This document shows, one piece after another, positions 1-31,054 of a stretch of DNA of 31,054 bases. The stretch is taken from IMG/VR virus record IMGVR_UViG_3300031673_000320, positions 1 to 31,054 of that record; one strand, 5' to 3'. The stretch comes from a virus. The first letter of the stretch is position 1; each line of letters begins with the position of its first letter. The notes under the pieces are model-generated. The model had not been told where the DNA came from and ran no database searches. It saw only the letters and a program-made list of their open reading frames with translations. The position numbers were made by a program, and so were the translations under genes.

Positions 1-138
1 CGGTAAGACACATGGATTGTGTCAAACGCAAAATGGATTTTGCGGGTAAAAATATAGTTAATTTCAATTAGTCGCTGGTGATTTACAATGACAAGATTAT
101 TGTAAATAAAGGATGGAGTCAGTCCGTTGAGGGGAGGT
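1..138. repeat. 138-bp terminal direct repeat, left copy
   Basis: Positions 1-138 are repeated at 30917-31054 with one difference (C at 120, A at 31036). This is what a circular molecule written out with overlapping ends gives. The single mismatch means it is not an exact k-mer overlap, so a real near-identical duplication or a base error remains possible. The end of the repeat falls inside a 21-bp tandem array, a likely place for an assembly to stop. Confidence 0.9.
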
Positions 139-188
139 CACTCGCATTTGAATCGAGGTCACTCGCATTTGAATCGAGGTCACTCGCA
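127..188. repeat. 62-bp block with 21-bp tandem repeat, copy 1
   Basis: The unit GAGGTCACTCGCATTTGAATC (21 bp) occurs about 2.6 times here after a short TTGAGGG lead-in. The whole 62-bp block is identical at 26108-26169, and its first 12 bases end the window (31043-31054). Read in one frame, the unit encodes Arg-Gly-His-Ser-His-Leu-Asn. Here the block splits a sequence that resembles part of the tail-fibre gene at 22941. The 8-mer CCGTTGAG occurs at its left edge (124-131) and just to its right (197-204). Confidence 0.95.
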
Positions 189-276
189 CGTTAGTGCCGT
201 TGAGCTTGCTATGTATTTTTTATCTTCTTGAATAGTGCTCTATTTTTAAATTTATAGCGCCAAGGATGGCAATAGA

Positions 277-683
277 ATGGCTGAAAAAAAAAACGCTCTA
301 AACTCGAAGAGACGGTTGGTCAGCAATTAGACTGTTTAAAAATTGAACAGAATTACGAAAGTCTAACTATACCGTTTATACAGCCTGAAAAACAACGAAA
401 ATACACGCCTGACTTCTGTTTATTCAGTGCTGACTACAGCAAAATAATATTTATAGAAGTTAAGGGTATTTTTGTGAAAGAAGACCGCGACAAGCATTTG
501 TGGGTTAGAAAGCAGAACCCAAGAAAGGACATTCGTTTTGTCTTTGGAAACTCGAAAAACAAAATAGCGAAAGGATCAAATACAACTTATGCGAGCTGGT
601 GTAAAAAGAACGGGTTTTTGTATGCTGATAAAAGAATCCCTTGGGGATGGCTTATAGAATTAGGATTGATGGAAAAAGTATAA
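277..683 (+). CDS. Endonuclease I (T7 gp3-like), start out of frame at an A10 run
   Basis: Holliday-junction resolvase of the T7 endonuclease I family, which in T7 cuts branched DNA during replication and packaging. The body reads openly in one frame from 285 to 683. It has YTPDF, then IEVKG about 15 residues later, giving the Asp, Glu and Lys of the PD-(D/E)xK site, and a conserved C-terminal half with FVFGNSKNKI and YADKRIPWGWL. The only good start is ATG at 277, behind AAGGA. It is in another frame and would stop at 328-330. The frames are separated by ten consecutive A (284-293). Eleven or eight A would give an intact protein of about 135 aa (T7: 149). Homopolymer error, polymerase slippage or a real mutation are all possible. 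The Shine-Dalgarno lies in a hexaloop AAGGAT between GCC and GGC (259-270). Confidence 0.85.
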
Positions 684-3714: not shown

Positions 3715-4152
3715 ATGGCTACTACTCGCATTGACGACGTTCATGATGTACTCGTAAAAGCTATTGAAGACGGCGCTACGTACAAAATGGCAAGTTGGGC
3801 TGCTGGAGTGAATGAGTCTACGTTTTCACGTTGGATGAAAATAGGCGAGCAGCATAGAAAAGATGGAATATTAGATACTAACTACTCAAAATTGTGCAAG
3901 GACATAAAAAGAGCTAGATATGATCGTGATTTAAAGCATATTGCAGTGATCGAAAATTGCGCAAAGCAAGGGCAGTGGCAAGCGAGTGCCTGGTGGCTAG
4001 AAAGAACAAATCAACATCAATTCGGTCGCAATGCTGATGAGCTAAAAAAAGCTGAAGAGCTAGAGCAGAAGATCGAAAAATTATCTAAATTAGTAATTGA
4101 AAAATTAGGACAAGGAGGGATAAATCATGATGACAACACAGAAACAGAATAA
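3715..4152 (+). CDS. terS: Terminase small subunit
   Basis: DNA-recognition subunit of the packaging motor. Residues about 8-40 form a helix-turn-helix (ATYKMASWAAGVNESTFSRWMK), followed by a helical region. The motif CAKQGQWQASAWWLERTNQHQFG is typical of HTH-type small terminases, and the C-terminus is a Lys/Glu coiled coil for oligomerisation. It lies 17 kb from the large subunit, unlike the adjacent T7 genes 18/19. The first of its genes in the operon stops two bases upstream. Confidence 0.8.
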   Translation: MATTRIDDVHDVLVKAIEDGATYKMASWAAGVNESTFSRWMKIGEQHRKDGILDTNYSKLCKDIKRARYDRDLKHIAVIENCAKQGQWQASAWWLERTNQHQFGRNADELKKAEELEQKIEKLSKLVIEKLGQGGINHDDNTETE

Positions 4153-4321
4153 AATATTAACTGGTAACGAAAGTAATATGCTTCAGGGCTCTACTCAAGA
4201 TAAATATCAATCTAAATACAATTCAATAAAGCCCAATGCTAGGCATGCAGACAACGGATATGTGGGATCTAATTATTCTGATGTCACTATGAGTCAGATT
4301 AATCGCATGACGAAGGAATAA
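4127..4321 (+). CDS. Hypothetical protein (64 aa)
   Basis: The start overlaps the small terminase by 26 nt and follows a strong AGGAGG. The product is polar, Asn/Ser/Gln-rich and probably disordered (MMTTQKQNKILTGNESNM). A small virion or head-assembly accessory is possible from position alone. The next gene starts directly after its stop. Confidence 0.6.
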   Translation: MMTTQKQNKILTGNESNMLQGSTQDKYQSKYNSIKPNARHADNGYVGSNYSDVTMSQINRMTKE

Positions 4322-5228: not shown

Positions 5229-5258
5229 ATACAACTAAAATAGGGGAGGTTCAAGCAT

Positions 5259-6863
5259 ATGGATGTGCAAGAACACTACGAGCGCTATCAAGACGCTTAT
5301 CAGTACAAAAAAAGATGGCTTGGCTTATATCAGGATCTGTACTTCTACGTAATTCCGAATAGGGACGCGTTTAATGTAATTGGAAATTATAATGATAAGG
5401 GAAAGCCAACAACTTCTGGAATCTGGGATAATACAGCGGTTCTTTCGTCGTACGAGCGTGCGAATGATCTTCACGCACTGCTTATGCCGAAAGACAGGGT
5501 TTGGGGAAGAGCTACGCTTGATCCTCATTTGCACGACTCTAAAGAGATTGACGCGTTACAGCCCGGGCTAGATGAGATTAATGACCGGATTATGTTTTAT
5601 CTGAACCAAAGCAATCTTGCTCGAATCATAAGCTCGTCAAATCTTGACTTGATCGGGGGAACAGCGGCGCTTTGGGTTGAATACATCAACAGCGACAATC
5701 CGTTGTCGTTTAAAGCTATACCTGCCATCGCTCTATACATAGAGCAGAGCACCGATGATTTAGTGAATACCGGATGGTATCAATCTAACATGTGTGCAAG
5801 AAAAATCATCGAGGAATTCCCAGATTACAAGGGCACCAGTCTTCAAATGTTAAAGGACAATCCCAATGAAATTCATCAAGTAATATATGGTCAAATAGGG
5901 AAAAAGGACGAGAAGAGCAAAGTAACAAAATATTATATTTACGCTGTTCTCGAGTCTGACCAGGAAAACATTTTATGGGAGATTGAACGCACGTATCCTC
6001 AACTAATCGTTTATCGGGATCGTGTCCGTCCCGGTGAAGCGGATGGGCGAGGGATTGGCCTTGATCTCCTGCCTACAATTCGCGATTTAAACAACTTGGT
6101 TCGCGACGACAGAAAAAACAAAGCTTTTAAAGCTGATCCCCCCATGTTCTACGATAACAACAAGATGTTTAACCCCTGGAGCGTTAAAAGCTGGTCAGGA
6201 GCTATGATTGCCCGTCAGCCCGGACAGCGTAATCCGATTGAAGCGTTGCAAATGCCTGTTTATCCAGAAGTTCGAGAAGATATTCGCATGTTGCAGGATG
6301 TTATTAAGAAAGGATTTCAAGTTGATCCGCTTGGCGAGATTAATAACCCCGTTAAAACAGCAACAGAGATTTCTATACGTGAGAACCGCGCACAAAGATC
6401 TAGCTCTACAGACATTGCTAGGCTGATTAATGAATTGCCCAAACAGGTTTTCCAGGTAGCGGCTGAAATATTAAAAGAAAGCCAAATGTTGACAAGGAAA
6501 AGAGACATAAACGCGTTCCCGCATGACGTCAAGTCTCTAACGTTTGAGTTTCAATCGCCGCTATACGACATACAAAACAAGTCTGACATTGAAAACTTCG
6601 TTCAGAACCTGCAATTGAAACAGCAATTTTTCGGGCAGGGTGCAGCAATGGCCACGGTTAACATATCAGTTGCTAATAATTTCTTGACAAAAAAGTTTAA
6701 TCTGCCAAGTAAATTGTTCAAGTCTGCAGAAGAAATTGAGGACATTATGAATCAATCCGGGCAGCAAGAACAACAGGCTCAACAAGCACAACAAGGATCT
6801 CCTACGCCGACAACGACAGGGTCTCAAGTTGGGTTGCCGCAGGGAACGCCCGAGCAATTTTAA
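5259..6863 (+). CDS. Portal / head-to-tail connector (T7 gp8-like)
   Basis: Forms the dodecameric ring through which DNA enters and leaves the head. At 534 aa the length matches the podovirus head-tail connector family (T7 gp8: 536). The N-terminus is helical (YKKRWLGLYQDLYFYVIPNRDAF). The core has SYERANDLHALLMPKDRVWGR and RPGEADGRGIGLDLLPTIRDLNNLVRD, characteristic of this family. The C-terminus is Gln-rich (QQEQQAQQAQQ) and probably disordered. It starts after GGGGAGG. The assignment is firm at family level. Confidence 0.93.
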   Translation: MDVQEHYERYQDAYQYKKRWLGLYQDLYFYVIPNRDAFNVIGNYNDKGKPTTSGIWDNTAVLSSYERANDLHALLMPKDRVWGRATLDPHLHDSKEIDALQPGLDEINDRIMFYLNQSNLARIISSSNLDLIGGTAALWVEYINSDNPLSFKAIPAIALYIEQSTDDLVNTGWYQSNMCARKIIEEFPDYKGTSLQMLKDNPNEIHQVIYGQIGKKDEKSKVTKYYIYAVLESDQENILWEIERTYPQLIVYRDRVRPGEADGRGIGLDLLPTIRDLNNLVRDDRKNKAFKADPPMFYDNNKMFNPWSVKSWSGAMIARQPGQRNPIEALQMPVYPEVREDIRMLQDVIKKGFQVDPLGEINNPVKTATEISIRENRAQRSSSTDIARLINELPKQVFQVAAEILKESQMLTRKRDINAFPHDVKSLTFEFQSPLYDIQNKSDIENFVQNLQLKQQFFGQGAAMATVNISVANNFLTKKFNLPSKLFKSAEEIEDIMNQSGQQEQQAQQAQQGSPTPTTTGSQVGLPQGTPEQF

Positions 6864-8141: not shown

Positions 8142-8334
8142 ATAAAACAGTTCATGAGCAAAAATAAAGCTTTTTACACGGACTTTCTTGGTGTATTATT
8201 ACCCTATCGTTCTATCAAAGCCCTGCATTTGTAGACAACCTTTTTGAGCGATCACAAGTATTGTCAGCCCGAGTAATCGATAACCTGCCAGATAGTTAAA
8301 AACTAATTTTTAATTTATGACAAGGATGTCTATT
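8142..8334. promoter_or_regulatory. Non-coding gap and leader upstream of capsid gene
   Basis: This stretch separates the antisense AlpA-type start from the capsid start. I see possible but weak -35/-10 pairs on the plus strand (TTTACA with TTATTA, 17-bp gap, near 8172-8200) and no convincing protein. A 26-codon ORF from 8154 has no ribosome-binding site. The 3' end holds the capsid Shine-Dalgarno hairpin (8319-8330). Confidence 0.4.
8319..8330 (+). promoter_or_regulatory. CsrA-consensus-like hairpin over the capsid Shine-Dalgarno
   Basis: GAC (8319-8321), hexaloop AAGGAT and GTC (8328-8330) lie 4 nt before the capsid ATG (8335). The 10-mer ACAAGGATGT equals the core of the published CsrA in-vitro selected consensus RUACARGGAUGU. 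The same 10-mer lies before the gene at 12246, and ACAAGGACGT before the genes at 5001 and 26735. Confidence 0.55.
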
Positions 8335-9561: not shown

Positions 9562-9581
9562 GTTAATCCAAGGAAGGACTT

Positions 9582-19229: not shown

Positions 19230-19284
19230 CAGTCTGTGACAATTTGTCACTGACTGGAAACCCAATATCACAAGGAGGTGTACC

Positions 19285-20880
19285 ATGGGAACAGTGCCAC
19301 AAGAGGAAACTCGTAATCAATATGTAGCAGATGGAATTGAAAATACCTTTATCTATTCTTATTTTATTCCAAAGGAAAAAGACATAACAATCTGGGTTAC
19401 GCCCTCTGGGAGCCCGCCCAATGAAACTGTAGACATTAAAATTCTTGGCGTTGATTACGCTGTGCAAAATGCCGGCGTTCCAGGTGGTGGAACCTTTAAA
19501 TTCTTGCCAGGAAAAATACCGGGAATAGGCGCAATTGTGACGGGCATAAGATCTGTAATTGACTCAATCACTACAAACTACGTTGATGCTAAAACAATTA
19601 GAGGTGACAACCTTGATGAATCATTCGAGCGTGAGATGTTGGTTACCCAACAGAATGTAACAAACTTAGATCGCACTGCGTTGAGATATCAAAACAATGC
19701 GTTCCTGCCAGACTCGTTAACTAGGAACGTTGTTCCAACGCTAGACCCTAACTTTTTTTGGAAAGGTTCTGCGGCTGGCGGCGTTATTGCCGTTGAGGAC
19801 AAAGAAGAGGCTGGATGTTCTTCACTAAGATCTGAGCTAGCAAGTGAAGTGCAGGGCGTTGATGGCGCTGGACTCTCTGGTTATTTTGACGAAAACCGAT
19901 TGCTGAGCACAAATGTACGGACTCAGTTAAACGGGTATGGCGACCCGACTAGTGGACAGGATGGAGCGAGATTGATTGGGTATTATGATCCGGTTAATTT
20001 AATTGAAACAAGTGTCGGAGACCAGTTAGATCTTGTAACAGGAGAGACTGACGGCTTACCTGAAAAGCTACAAAACAGTTTTCCTATTTATGGAGACGAT
20101 GTTGGATTAGCGGATGCTATGGTTGTTAACATTGTTCCTGCTTATCAAGCATACGTTCCTGGAACAAGGGTATTTGTTAAGGTTGCAAATGCTAATGTTA
20201 CTCAAACACCAACATTAAATCTAAACGGACTTGGCGATAAAACAATTACCAATAAGTCTGGAGCTCTATTAGTCGCTGGTGATTTACAAGCTGGTGGTAT
20301 TTATGAGTTTATTTATGATGGTGTAGATTTTCAATCTTTAACATCTCCACATAACAGAACACATGGAGAATTTAGTTCATTAAGCCTTGTTAGTGTTACA
20401 AATACTACCACAGAAACTAGCTTAATTGGCAATATATCAGGAAGTAATGTTATTCCAGCAAACTTCCTAACAAATGGAAGCGCATACAGGTTTAGCTTAA
20501 TTGGATCTTATCAAGATACTCTTGAAACACCAATTTTCTTAAGAATAAAATCAAATGGGACAACTCTTTTTGGTTTTAATGCTGTTGATTGGGGAAAAAC
20601 TCCTTTGGCATTCACTCCGGTACTTCCTTTAGCTATTAATGTAGACATTGTATTTAGATCAGTTGGGAATCCTTCAACAATATACGCCAATTTAGAAATA
20701 ACAAACGGATCTAGTTCTATAGACTATAGATTACGATGGAATACTTCTTTTGAGGGTGTAAATACAACTGATTTTAACTCTGAAATTGATAATACATTAG
20801 ATTTAACACTTGAATGGAATAATCCAGGCCCACAGTTATCAATGAATATTGAATCCTTTACTTCAGCTAAAGTTTTTTAA
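19285..20880 (+). CDS. T7-type tail fibre
   Basis: Residues 1-140 form the T7 tail-fibre attachment domain: MGTVPQEETRNQYVADGIEN, FIYSYFIPKEKDITIWV, then TIRGDNLDESFEREMLVTQQNVTNLD. The middle is beta-rich. The last 170 residues form a domain related to the end of the protein at 24239 (shared pattern T-D/T-F-N/D-S/T-E-I-D/E-N-T-L/I-D/E-L-T). It binds the nozzle and, by its tip, probably the receptor. The Shine-Dalgarno AAGGAG is loop-presented between CAC and GTG (19269-19280). A 16-bp palindrome follows the gene. Confidence 0.92.
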   Translation: MGTVPQEETRNQYVADGIENTFIYSYFIPKEKDITIWVTPSGSPPNETVDIKILGVDYAVQNAGVPGGGTFKFLPGKIPGIGAIVTGIRSVIDSITTNYVDAKTIRGDNLDESFEREMLVTQQNVTNLDRTALRYQNNAFLPDSLTRNVVPTLDPNFFWKGSAAGGVIAVEDKEEAGCSSLRSELASEVQGVDGAGLSGYFDENRLLSTNVRTQLNGYGDPTSGQDGARLIGYYDPVNLIETSVGDQLDLVTGETDGLPEKLQNSFPIYGDDVGLADAMVVNIVPAYQAYVPGTRVFVKVANANVTQTPTLNLNGLGDKTITNKSGALLVAGDLQAGGIYEFIYDGVDFQSLTSPHNRTHGEFSSLSLVSVTNTTTETSLIGNISGSNVIPANFLTNGSAYRFSLIGSYQDTLETPIFLRIKSNGTTLFGFNAVDWGKTPLAFTPVLPLAINVDIVFRSVGNPSTIYANLEITNGSSSIDYRLRWNTSFEGVNTTDFNSEIDNTLDLTLEWNNPGPQLSMNIESFTSAKVF

Positions 20881-22436: not shown

Positions 22437-22450
22437 TTACAAGGAGGTGA
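22437..22450 (+). promoter_or_regulatory. Shine-Dalgarno hairpin before the 97-aa gene
   Basis: TTAC (22437-22440), hexaloop AAGGAG and GTGA (22447-22450) pair with one U-G wobble, placing the ribosome-binding site of GTG 22454 in the loop. Part of the complementarity also follows from the extended anti-16S match AAGGAGGTGA, so it is a weaker family member. Confidence 0.4.
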
Positions 22451-26037: not shown

Positions 26038-26114
26038 TGGTAGGCCAAGCAGGATTCGAACCTGCTACCCTCGGCTTAGAAGGCCTATGCTCTATCCAGA
26101 TGAGCTATTGAGGG
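26038..26114 (-). tRNA. tRNA-Arg (anticodon UCU), acceptor stem broken
   Basis: On the minus strand the D arm, anticodon arm (loop CTTCTAA, anticodon TCT), T arm (GCAGG/CCTGC with loop TTCGAAT) and an encoded CCA end are all present. The 3' acceptor strand is TTGGCCT, but the 5' strand reads CCCTCAA, so only four of seven pairs form. The anticodon stem has one A-G mismatch. The lost bases lie exactly where the 62-bp repeat block begins, which points to truncation by that block. The intact form would read AGA codons, which this element uses often. It could also be an attachment-site remnant, though no integrase is present. Confidence 0.8.
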
Positions 26115-26169
26115 GAGGTCACTCGCATTTGAATCGAGGTCACTCGCATTTGAATCGAGGTCACTCGCA
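26108..26169. repeat. 62-bp block with 21-bp tandem repeat, copy 2
   Basis: Identical over all 62 bases to 127-188. Here it replaces the 5' acceptor bases of the tRNA-Arg gene and is followed by a partial extra half unit (TTTGGAG). Two copies at unrelated sites, both interrupting older sequence, suggest mobility or recombination between repeats. Confidence 0.95.
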
Positions 26170-26735: not shown

Positions 26736-26766
26736 ACACCACGTCCTTGTGTTATTAATTAACAAT

Positions 26767-27922: not shown

Positions 27923-28006
27923 TTAAACTAAAATAAACGCTGAAACCATCAGCAGAGTAATAAACAATCCAAACCAAATAAGATCATCTTTTGTTGATTT
28001 TTTCAT
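27923..28006 (-). CDS. Membrane micropeptide (27 aa)
   Basis: ATG overlaps the stop of the upstream 152-aa gene as ATGA (28003-28006). The peptide starts MKKSTKDDLIWFGLFITLLM and ends VSAFILV: a charged head and one transmembrane helix. It has no Shine-Dalgarno of its own, so it depends on coupling. It may act at the host membrane, for example in exclusion. Confidence 0.55.
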   Translation of the reverse strand: MKKSTKDDLIWFGLFITLLMVSAFILV

Positions 28007-28461
28007 GACTGAACCCCTTTAAATACAGTAATTCCTGATTTTACTAATTCAATAACAAAGTCAGCTTTGTTGGCACGGAAAGTATCATCATCAGGAATTC
28101 TTTCGCGCAGATTTTTTTCTATTTCTTCTATTAATTGATCTTCATAGTAACCAACTGCTTGGTGTCTTATGCTGTCAACGAGGTCTTCTTTTTTATCGTA
28201 ATCTAGTTCATTGCCGACAATGCAAGAAATTGCCTCCATCAAAGAGTCAGAGTTAACAATAAATTCTGCATCATGATTTCCATCATTAATACAGATCTTT
28301 GCGTATCTCTCTCTCTGATCAAATGGGATATCTTCAACGTCTAAGCTTGTGTAGTCAGATTTTTTATCATATGTTCCGTAGCAATCGATGAATTCATTGA
28401 CGAGTTCAGACGCTGACATTTCGTGATTAACTGCAATATTTTGCCTGAATAGATCAACCAT
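28003..28461 (-). CDS. Hypothetical acidic protein (152 aa)
   Basis: Soluble, Asp/Glu-rich, helical (MSASELVNEFIDCYGTYDKK, then DQLIEEIEKNLRERIPDDD). I recognise no family. It overlaps neighbours on both sides, so it is an operon member. Its strong acidity recalls phage inhibitors that mimic DNA, but nothing specific shows that. The Shine-Dalgarno is in hexaloop AGGGAG between GCC and GGC (28469-28480). Confidence 0.6.
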   Translation of the reverse strand: MVDLFRQNIAVNHEMSASELVNEFIDCYGTYDKKSDYTSLDVEDIPFDQRERYAKICINDGNHDAEFIVNSDSLMEAISCIVGNELDYDKKEDLVDSIRHQAVGYYEDQLIEEIEKNLRERIPDDDTFRANKADFVIELVKSGITVFKGVQS

Positions 28462-28636
28462 TAGTTCTGCCCTCCCTGGCTTGTGAATTCATAGTAACGA
28501 GAAATTTTAGCGTAGATTGCATTTCTTGTTCAGTGGTTTCCTTTGTTAAGTGATCGAAATATTTCCCAAGCCTAGAATCGCTTGGGTTACCTAGATCTAT
28601 TAAGCTATTAAGTCCTGATAAACTTCCCTTAAACAT
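28454..28636 (-). CDS. Hypothetical protein (60 aa)
   Basis: I start at ATG 28636 (MFKGSLSGLNSLIDLG) because GGAGGTG lies about 6 nt upstream. The longer reading frame begins in the gene before. The product is polar with a helical C-terminus (KETTEQEMQSTLKFLVTMNSQ). It overlaps the genes on both sides by 8 nt. Confidence 0.6.
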   Translation of the reverse strand: MFKGSLSGLNSLIDLGNPSDSRLGKYFDHLTKETTEQEMQSTLKFLVTMNSQAREGRTNG

Positions 28637-29557: not shown

Positions 29558-29707
29558 ATGAATGCTCACGAACGAACTATAAGCAAATTTTGCTACATTG
29601 TCAATAATAGCATTGAGATATTGTCTATTGTCTCTCGATCTGTTTTCGTAACATACTACATTATGCACACAAGAAAAGGATTTCAACGGTGTTGTCTCAA
29701 AACATAG
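29558..29707 (+). CDS. Leader peptide of repA (Tap/RepY-like, 49 aa)
   Basis: ATG 29558 follows AGGAG by 10 nt and ends at TAG 29705-29707, overlapping the first 19 nt of repA in another frame. In IncFII (tap) and IncB/I-type (repY) plasmids, translation of such a leader opens the repA start. The peptide itself (MNAHERTISKFCYIVNNSIE...) probably has no function beyond that. It is longer than classical leaders (about 24-29 aa). Confidence 0.75.
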   Translation: MNAHERTISKFCYIVNNSIEILSIVSRSVFVTYYIMHTRKGFQRCCLKT

Positions 29708-30423
29708 AATTAACTACAGGCGACTTCGTAAAGCCATTTAAAAATTACTGTGATCACGATAAAAATAACTTCGTTTTTTATAATCGTAACTCGACAAGAA
29801 GAAACCCACCCAAACCCATCGAAATAGCATCTATTAATTTGAAATACTGGGCAAAAAACACCGGTTATTATTTGTGTCATCTTAAGTCACAGCGATACTC
29901 AAATAAGAACATGCGTAGTCAGCGTCGCGAATCCGTTGCTAATGTAGCGCAGTGCATCATTAATCACACAGATTTATGCACAATGCAGCCCATTAAATAC
30001 AATTGTAATGAAAGTCCGAGCTCACTCAACGCAGGGCTAATCTCTGCAATAACAAACATCAGTTACTCACGCGTATTGAGAGCACTTACTGATCTGGAGT
30101 GTGGCGGATATATCAAGGTGAAGCATTCATTCTCGTTTAAAACGGGAGGAATCATTCACAGAAGGCGACATCTGTTAAAAGTCAGTAAGCGATTGTTTGT
30201 TCATCTTGGTGTCTGTGCTCAGTTTTTAGAAAAAACAATTAGCAAGCTACGAAGCATGCGTGAACTAGAGCCCACACTAGAGAGAGAAATGACTAATGCA
30301 CAGAAGCTAGGCATGGATGTAAACAGAATAGCTGCAGAACACGAAAAACGGATGAAAAAGAACAAGCAAACTGGACCTCAGATGTTCCGTTCTTTTTTAA
30401 AAACAATGTCTATCAGACAATAA
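29689..30423 (+). CDS. repA: Replication initiator RepA, IncFII/IncB-like
   Basis: Initiates plasmid-type replication by binding the origin downstream of its own gene. 244 aa, GTG start with AAGGAT 8 nt upstream in a hexaloop between GAA and TTC. Residues about 115-180 form a winged-helix segment (AGLISAITNISYSRVLRALTDLECGGYIKV, then RRRHLLKVSKRLFVHLGV) like the 'RATRAL...LG..T' region of IncFII RepA. The C-terminus is basic and helical (AAEHEKRMKKNKQTGP). Antisense RNA, leader ORF and a DnaA box downstream support the assignment. I cannot see the sequence well enough to place it in a single Inc group. Confidence 0.8.
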   Translation: MLSQNIELTTGDFVKPFKNYCDHDKNNFVFYNRNSTRRNPPKPIEIASINLKYWAKNTGYYLCHLKSQRYSNKNMRSQRRESVANVAQCIINHTDLCTMQPIKYNCNESPSSLNAGLISAITNISYSRVLRALTDLECGGYIKVKHSFSFKTGGIIHRRRHLLKVSKRLFVHLGVCAQFLEKTISKLRSMRELEPTLEREMTNAQKLGMDVNRIAAEHEKRMKKNKQTGPQMFRSFLKTMSIRQ

Positions 30424-30840
30424 CAACCCCTTAACACCCACGGTCTTCATTTGCTTGTTGCTGCACAGCTACATATACACCATTATTTTGTTCAATAAAA
30501 AACCAACCATTTAAAAACTTATCCACATTTTTTTGGGGTATGTCTGTTAACAGTCTGTGATATAGAGTTAGTCACAAGTTAAGTGTAAGTATACCCTTGA
30601 TTAAGTGTTTAACTTAATCAAGTATTATCTAATTGTATTTCTCTTTTCAAAAAAGCAAATCGCATCAATAACCTATGGAGCACTGGAAGATCTATATTCT
30701 CGATGGAAGAAAAAGGGGATAATCCAATTCCCGTAATTTCTGATACAAATAATTCCAATCTTATCTGGGCTCTTACCTAAGCATCAAAAATCTTACCTGG
30801 GCTCTTACCTAAGCCCTATCTAAATAGCCAATATCTCAAC
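30424..30840. other. Origin-like region (DnaA box, inverted repeat, iteron-like repeats)
   Basis: No gene is visible. A perfect DnaA box TTATCCACA lies at 30519-30527, as in the origin of plasmid R1, which also follows repA. A 10-bp inverted repeat CTTGATTAAG/CTTAATCAAG spans 30596-30622. Four near-copies of a 12-mer (TCTTAYCTRRGC) occur at about 30759-30814, in a 32-bp higher-order repeat. Much of the stretch is very AT-rich. The likely role is RepA binding and strand opening. The exact start site cannot be read. Confidence 0.7.
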
Positions 30841-30861
30841 ACACATATAGTTATATGTTGG

Positions 30862-30890
30862 TTGTTCATTTTTTGATTAAGCCTTATAAT
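30862..30890 (+). promoter_or_regulatory. Promoter of the hairpin RNA locus
   Basis: TTGTTC (30862-30867), 17 bp, TATAAT (30885-30890). The -10 is perfect and the -35 weak. A near-palindrome ACATATA-GT-TATATGT (30842-30857) ends 4 bp upstream and could bind a regulator. Transcription would start near 30897 and run through the ANGGA hairpins. Confidence 0.6.
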
Positions 30891-30896
30891 ATCAAT

Positions 30897-31054
30897 GTGC
30901 TATTCAAGAACACGGACGGTAAGACACATGGATTGTGTCAAACGCAAAATGGATTTTGCGGGTAAAAATATAGTTAATTTCAATTAGTCGCTGGTGATTT
31001 ACAATGACAAGATTATTGTAAATAAAGGATGGAGTAAGTCCGTTGAGGGGAGGT
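30897..31054 (+). ncRNA. Candidate CsrA/RsmA-titrating small RNA (5' part, second end copy)
   Basis: From the predicted start near 30897 the RNA contains ACGGA (30912-30916), then the two AUGGA hairpins and other ANGGA motifs of the 138-bp repeat. On a circular molecule it is the same locus as the entry at positions 1-244. Evidence is base pairing and motif density only. Confidence 0.4.
30917..31054. repeat. 138-bp terminal direct repeat, right copy
   Basis: Matches 1-138 except at 31036. It ends 12 bases into the 62-bp repeat block, so the window stops inside the tandem array. Confidence 0.9.

Follow-up and report, generated by a model that had tools for sequence, protein, structure and literature searches.

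The non-coding locus and its surroundings

The DNA analysed here (the window) is a viral contig of 31,054 nt. Its ends share 138 nt (1–138 = 30917–31054) with one mismatch, C/A at 120, and because they overlap it is reasonable to read past position 31,054 into position 1 as on a circle, as the sequence-only reading of this DNA had done when it continued the locus at 1–138. Exact 127-nt end overlaps are present in four full-length relatives. The window codes for a podovirus-type structural operon (Head-tail connector portal, Phage_capsid_2 and terminase), together with SSB, ERF, a Gp157/Gam-like protein, endonuclease I and a RepA-like protein. Neither an integrase nor a csrA gene was recognised on the element; the virus seems to live as a plasmid, that is, as a phage-plasmid. 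Portal searches returned 79 loci in IMG/VR and terminase searches led to a contig of 31 kb that is binned as gammaproteobacterial; the searches for relatives ran with near-identical records of the window excluded. The fold prediction for the RepA-like protein from its single sequence was uninformative (pLDDT 38). A likely oriV lies behind its gene, with two 26-nt direct repeats (TCTTAYCT units, 30757–30814) and a DnaA box (TTATCCACA, 30519–30527).

The locus itself follows a palindrome and a promoter-like sequence. The TATAAT that had been placed ahead of it is present at 30885–30890 with a weak −35 element (TTGTTC, 17-nt spacer), and the consensus promoter scan did not return this promoter, which scores below the cut-off. 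Five ANGGA motifs start at 30912, 30928, 30949, 31025 and 31029; the earlier count of five in about 120 nt is thus correct (122 nt, with a + strand average of 0.68 per 120 nt), and as an element-wide signal such a cluster is weak, with 13.5% of element shuffles having one. Two of the motifs are presented by HP1 and HP2, which are both perfect, adjacent to each other and built on unrelated stems, with the GGA unpaired in each. Sequence and predicted fold both agree here with the earlier description of two hairpins sharing ATGGAT in the loop. A pair of such GGA-loop hairpins within 60 nt was seen in none of 200 whole-element shuffles, and two hairpins arose in 2 of 5000 shuffles of the locus alone. 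Since element shuffles yield five-ANGGA clusters but no hairpin pair, the weight rests on the hairpins and not on the motif count.

The structured unit is larger than the sequence-only reading had stated. The predicted fold closes as a domain of about 258 nt (z −4.6) through the 14-bp helix P1, which begins at the predicted first base, 30897; no comparable helix formed from the first bases in any of 3000 shuffles. The z-score alone says little, because strongly folded intergenic DNA is common in the clade (18 of 334 intergenic windows have z < −4 in a rougher test). One intergenic region of a relative (G009:C13, 11274–11630) is predicted to fold exceptionally strongly on either strand (z about −11, rough test). 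Three of the five ANGGA motifs are freely accessible in the predicted fold (HP1, HP2 and the ACGGA); in the other two, at 31025 and 31029, pairing predominates (P unpaired 0.33 and 0.07). The locus has no Rfam match at gathering level or at E ≤ 5.

Downstream, the locus reads into the gene for endonuclease I, the resolvase of the element, without a strong terminator between. No strong intrinsic terminator was found on the + strand before 907, and near 231–247 there is only a weak terminator-like AATAG[TGCT]CTATTTTT. The ATG frame of the resolvase gene (277) and ORF 474–683 are joined only via one shift at an A10 run at 284–293 (AAAAAAAAAAC), which is either a homopolymer error or a site of frameshifting or slippage.

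Two other parts of the locus have counterparts elsewhere in the window. At 26108, the second copy of the 62-nt repeat block stands in place of the first bases of a minus-strand tRNA gene. The gene is otherwise nearly complete (Rfam tRNA at 26046–26110, missed by ARAGORN) and looks as though a small mobile repeat had inserted into it. A 25-nt stretch of the locus (64–88) recurs with 24 matches in the fibre gene (20265–20289), which is too long for chance, and is also shared with the repeat block. HP3 was considered as an XerCD/cer resolution site, for which XerC and XerD arms with 6–8 nt between them were required; the weight-matrix scan found an XerD-like arm only, the XerC arm being negative, and this candidate was rejected.

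Table 1. Features of the locus and GGA-loop leader hairpins in the window (loop in square brackets; RBS, ribosome-binding site)
Feature	Position	Strand	Basis or remark
Portal start hairpin GCAU[AUGGAU]GUGC	5255..5268	+	portal start codon inside hexaloop
GAC[AAGGAT]GTC	8319..8330	+	over RBS of major capsid gene (start taken as 8335)
TCC[AAGGAA]GGA	9567..9578	+	over RBS of gene 9582
CAC[AAGGAG]GTG	19269..19280	+	over RBS of fibre gene 19285
TTAC[AAGGAG]GTGA	22437..22450	+	over RBS of gene 22454
TTATTAA[AAGGAC]TTAATAA	22922..22941	+	over RBS of gene 22941
CAC[AAGGAC]GTG	26740..26751	-	upstream of SSB (PF00436)
GCC[AGGGAG]GGC	28469..28480	-	over RBS of gene 28003-28461
GAA[AAGGAT]TTC	29673..29684	+	over RBS of RepA-like gene
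RepA-like protein	29689..30423	+	weak winged-helix signal; homologue in L053, 53% identical
Palindrome ACATATA-GT-TATATGT, possible operator	30843..30858	.	sequence; just upstream of promoter
Promoter-like TTGTTC-17-TATAAT	30862..30890	+	sequence; below cut-off of consensus scan
P1, 5' arm of 14-bp closing helix	30897..30910	+	predicted to pair with 225-238
ANGGA site 1 (ACGGA)	30912..30916	+	predicted unpaired
HP1 GACACA[TGGAT]TGTGTC / GACAC[AUGGAUU]GUGUC	30923..30939 (copy at 7-23)	+	7-nt loop, C-G closure
HP2 CGCAAA[AUGGAU]UUUGCG	30943..30960 (copy at 27-44)	+	exact CsrA-type hexaloop
HP3 ATTTACAAT/ATTGTAAAT	81..107 (second copy in end repeat)	+	sequence; hairpin without GGA
Overlapping AAGGA and ATGGA	109..117 (31025-31033 in end copy)	+	predicted mostly paired
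62-nt block of 21-nt tandem repeats	127..188	+	inside folded domain; identical copy at 26108-26169
P1, 3' arm	225..238	+	followed by T-rich TCTATTTTTAAATTT
GCC[AAGGAT]GGC	259..270	+	over endonuclease I Shine-Dalgarno; GGA predicted unpaired
Endonuclease I (T7 gp3 family)	277..683	+	PF05367 5e-25 on 474-680; phrog_945

GGA-hexaloop leaders in the window and its relatives

Comparison of leaders across the clade revealed short perfect hairpins with the Shine-Dalgarno sequence in the loop ahead of many genes. In the window, 7 of the 22 leader ANGGAN sites carry such a hairpin against 0.43 expected (automatic starts, Watson-Crick stem of at least 3 bp, exact register), among them those of RepA, capsid, SSB and fibre. 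With a minimum stem of 4 bp, the hexaloop-register count was 2 of 22, which is not significant, and in the first leader tests (stem of at least 5 bp, first-start ORFs) the window was nothing special. The window's own leader signal is real and rests on short stems, since only the exact-register test with stems of at least 3 bp showed enrichment. A test on curated starts gave 11 of 23; these starts were chosen by hand and are therefore less clean, and we relied on the automatic test.

The clade carries the same signal in stronger form. Over 82 related contigs, stems of at least 4 bp were found at 116 of 883 start-site ANGGAN motifs versus 19.6 expected when the flanks were shuffled around the fixed motif, the starts being automatic, rule-based predictions and the site counts not independent because the contigs are related. 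The proportion of ANGGAN motifs with a stem was 13.1% at starts versus 2.0% away from them, and in 19 of the 116 hairpins the start codon itself is in the loop. Among 1479 distinct GGA contexts, which are different sequences from related contigs, the register with two bases before and one after the GGA gave 82 hairpins versus 8.8 expected, and the base two before the GGA was decisive: 74 of 786 contexts with A formed the hairpin versus 8 of 693 with any other base. The 8-nt and 4-nt registers also score; by our reading these are largely the same hairpins with a closing T.G or A-T pair counted. Seven control phages (T7, T4, ICP1, ZP6, ZCVPP1, HTVC204P and BUCT555) gave 0 of 121. The more distant contigs (roughly from L092 onward) are mostly without the hairpin signal.

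An ANGGAX hexaloop placed directly on a stem is what defines high-affinity CsrA/RsmE sites (PMC4005645, PMC7652899). The register and base specificity of the clade hairpins match the CsrA consensus. The GGA-loop leaders that had been proposed from the window are therefore enriched both there and, with the exact CsrA hexaloop, across the clade.

Individual leaders change in sequence and keep their pairing. The portal start hairpin has the stem GCAA/UUGC in relative L052 and GCAU/AUGC in L053, and the capsid leader has a counterpart in L052, AATGAC[AAGGAT]GTTATT. In an alignment of the portal leader of relatives, with 25 rows chosen for having ANGGAN, all seven pairs of the hairpin show two-sided changes (score 0.384 versus 0.239 shuffled), with 22 covarying cells versus 12.3 shuffled.

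As to the protein, csrA was absent from 34 of 35 scanned relatives. One of the more distant contigs, the related phage contig G436 of 36 kb, has a csrA of its own (L133, 15418–15606) beside repressor-like HTH genes; CsrA-type hairpins are absent from the leaders of its late genes. In the order of the bin that holds the relative G009, which may not be that of the window's host, 30 of 36 genomes had a csrA scoring above the cut-off. The clade lends strong independent support to a probable CsrA link of the locus and the leaders. The clade-wide operator set is a larger finding than the locus itself, and this virus family appears to be wired to the CsrA switch of its host.

Counterparts of the locus in related elements

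L053 was the only close contig found with a window-type RepA; the more distant RepA relatives are in one genome of G009's order and on a Legionella plasmid. After its RepA gene, L053 has an origin-like AT-rich stretch, two GGA hairpins, GTGATC[AAGGAT]GATCAT (−33) and AGC[AAGGAA]GCT (−14), and then a RusA resolvase (3817–4272) in place of the window's endonuclease I. Judging from the genes, unrelated resolvases have apparently been swapped behind the same RepA.

The double-hairpin array of the window is absent at the syntenic place in L053, and a search over 1.2 Mb of clade DNA yielded no other noncoding array of this kind. Candidate arrays in five relatives (G001, G002, G003, G006 and G008) proved not to be sponge-like. 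The one other array hit is a pair of adjacent GGA hairpins, GTTC[ATGGAT]GAAC and TGAAC[AGGGA]GTTCA, in the structural gene region of G001 (21333, − strand) and L080 (6625), near the gene before the scaffold gene. A search of viral contigs with the HP2 pattern gave no homologue of the locus and three chance coding matches, the repeat-pattern search gave no DNA homologue, and 369 gammaproteobacterial genomes gave one chance match only.

A CsrA-binding leader of the resolvase transcript as the favoured reading

The locus is likely to contain a CsrA-type element. Our best explanation, to which we give a probability of about 0.42, is that it is a CsrA-binding RNA forming the 5′ leader of the endonuclease I (Holliday-junction resolvase) transcript. 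Transcription would start near 30897, and the first ~258 nt would fold so that P1 closes a domain presenting the two AUGGAU hairpins and the free ACGGA. About 20 nt past the end of this domain, the GCC[AAGGAT]GGC hairpin would cover the resolvase ribosome site. HP1 and HP2 cannot block the ribosome directly, because they lie about 250–270 nt from the resolvase start, far beyond the distances in L053 or glgC; a host CsrA dimer held on them would instead bridge to the ribosome site and keep the resolvase untranslated, which is how the glgC and pgaA leaders work. The resolvase operator would be one of a wider set at the gene starts of RepA, SSB, portal, capsid and tail genes. The sequence, the hairpins, their statistical enrichment and the covariation in relatives have been observed; transcription of the locus, CsrA binding, repression and bridging are inferred.

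Several observations argue for this leader. The hairpin pair does not recur in element shuffles, the closed fold starts from the predicted first base, no + strand terminator precedes the gene, and the GGA is predicted to be accessible in HP1, HP2, the ACGGA and the endonuclease I Shine-Dalgarno hairpin. The clade enrichment, the portal covariation, the empty controls and the frequency of csrA in G009's order point the same way, as does the resolvase leader of L053: a cis-acting leader is favoured because the window and L053 both set a resolvase behind RepA with a GGA-hairpin leader, a parallel of position and motif only, since the resolvase genes and the hairpins differ. Against it stand the distance of HP1 and HP2 from the resolvase start, the shift that the resolvase frame needs at the A10 run, the lack of a CsrA gene on the element and the closed fold, which in its predicted form resembles that of a stand-alone RNA.

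This last point leads to the sequence-only reading, in which the locus is a sponge of the CsrB/RsmY/RsmZ type: a free RNA running from 30897 to about 240 (some 258 nt), made on a phage signal, would titrate host CsrA and so release those replication and structural genes of the element that CsrA keeps down. We consider this possible and favour the leader over it. Two high-affinity-type hexaloops on unrelated stems, a free ACGGA, the closed fold beginning at the predicted start, a T-rich stretch after 238 and the distance of HP1 and HP2 from any ribosome site would all suit a sponge, and the window carries candidate operators that it could release. Of the proposed design, the multiple GGA motifs, two of them in loops, have stood, whereas a strong terminator, an Rfam match and conservation in relatives are lacking, and the accessible sites number only three. 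Related elements keep the leaders and do without the locus, even those with many operators, and a conserved sponge is unlikely because no noncoding array was seen in the 1.2 Mb from relatives; a sponge private to the window element is possible. The most far-reaching proposal, that a podovirus-like phage family has put much of its translation (replication, portal, capsid and tail) under host CsrA through hexaloop operators and that the window phage-plasmid makes its own CsrA-titrating RNA and so throws the switch itself, is in our judgement doubtful as a whole.

We regard as improbable a reading without CsrA, in which the leaders are ordinary phage initiation hairpins that expose the ribosome site or stabilise the RNA; the locus, unconnected with them, would be a structured RNA or DNA site close to the replication origin. 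Such a site would fit the frequency of structured intergenic DNA in the clade, the position of the locus between the oriV-like region and the resolvase gene, and the 25-nt stretch that it has in common with the fibre gene and the repeat block. Presentation of the Shine-Dalgarno sequence leaves unexplained, however, the 9-fold enrichment in the hexaloop register, the need for an A two bases before the GGA and two hairpins away from any start. Least probable is that a small ORF (ATG 30928, MDCVKRKMDFAGKNIVNFN) begins at HP1 with its start codon in the AUGGAU loop, and that CsrA acts through this ORF on a downstream gene as it does at iraD (PMC7652899). Loops of clade hairpins can hold a start codon, as for the portal gene, and HP1 and HP2 have their ATGs in the same frame; against this, the ORF has only 19 codons and a weak ribosome site and stops ~290 nt ahead of the endonuclease I start.

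Comparison with known systems

The growth state of the host is what CsrA signals. Were a whole virus family to carry CsrA operators on its replication and structural genes, its decision between quiescence and particle production would follow host metabolism through translation.

The locus resembles CsrB/CsrC and RsmX/Y/Z in its several ANGGA motifs, some in hairpin loops with unrelated stems, in its promoter with an upstream palindrome and in its compact fold. It differs in having three accessible sites versus many, in lacking a clear terminator or Rfam match and in its place on a phage-like element; RsmZ, for comparison, packs eight GGA motifs into 127 nt and has a rho-independent terminator of its own (PMC4005645). 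With the glgC and pgaA leaders, the latter having six sites in a long leader (PMC7652899), it shares an upstream GGA hairpin combined with a site over the Shine-Dalgarno sequence. Unlike in those leaders, the hairpins of the locus lie ~250 nt ahead of the start, where only the predicted closing helix brings them close, and the regulated gene would be a phage resolvase.

The putative phage operators are in turn most like the RsmE/RsmA-bound hairpin over the hcnA RBS, where an ANGGAX hexaloop likewise stands directly on the stem (PMC4005645). They differ from it in occurring at many genes of one virus family rather than at single host genes, in their often shorter stems (3–7 bp) and, in some, in holding the start codon itself in the loop. 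In the open-licence literature we came across no phage structural gene described as controlled directly through a CsrA operator; known links are phage-carried csrA genes and effects of CsrA on a prophage repressor (PMC7366521, PMC12371270). The csrA genes on phages, plasmids and Legionella ICEs likewise tie mobile elements to the Csr system (PMC7366521); in the window, unlike in those elements, the link would be made through binding sites, presumably for the host protein.
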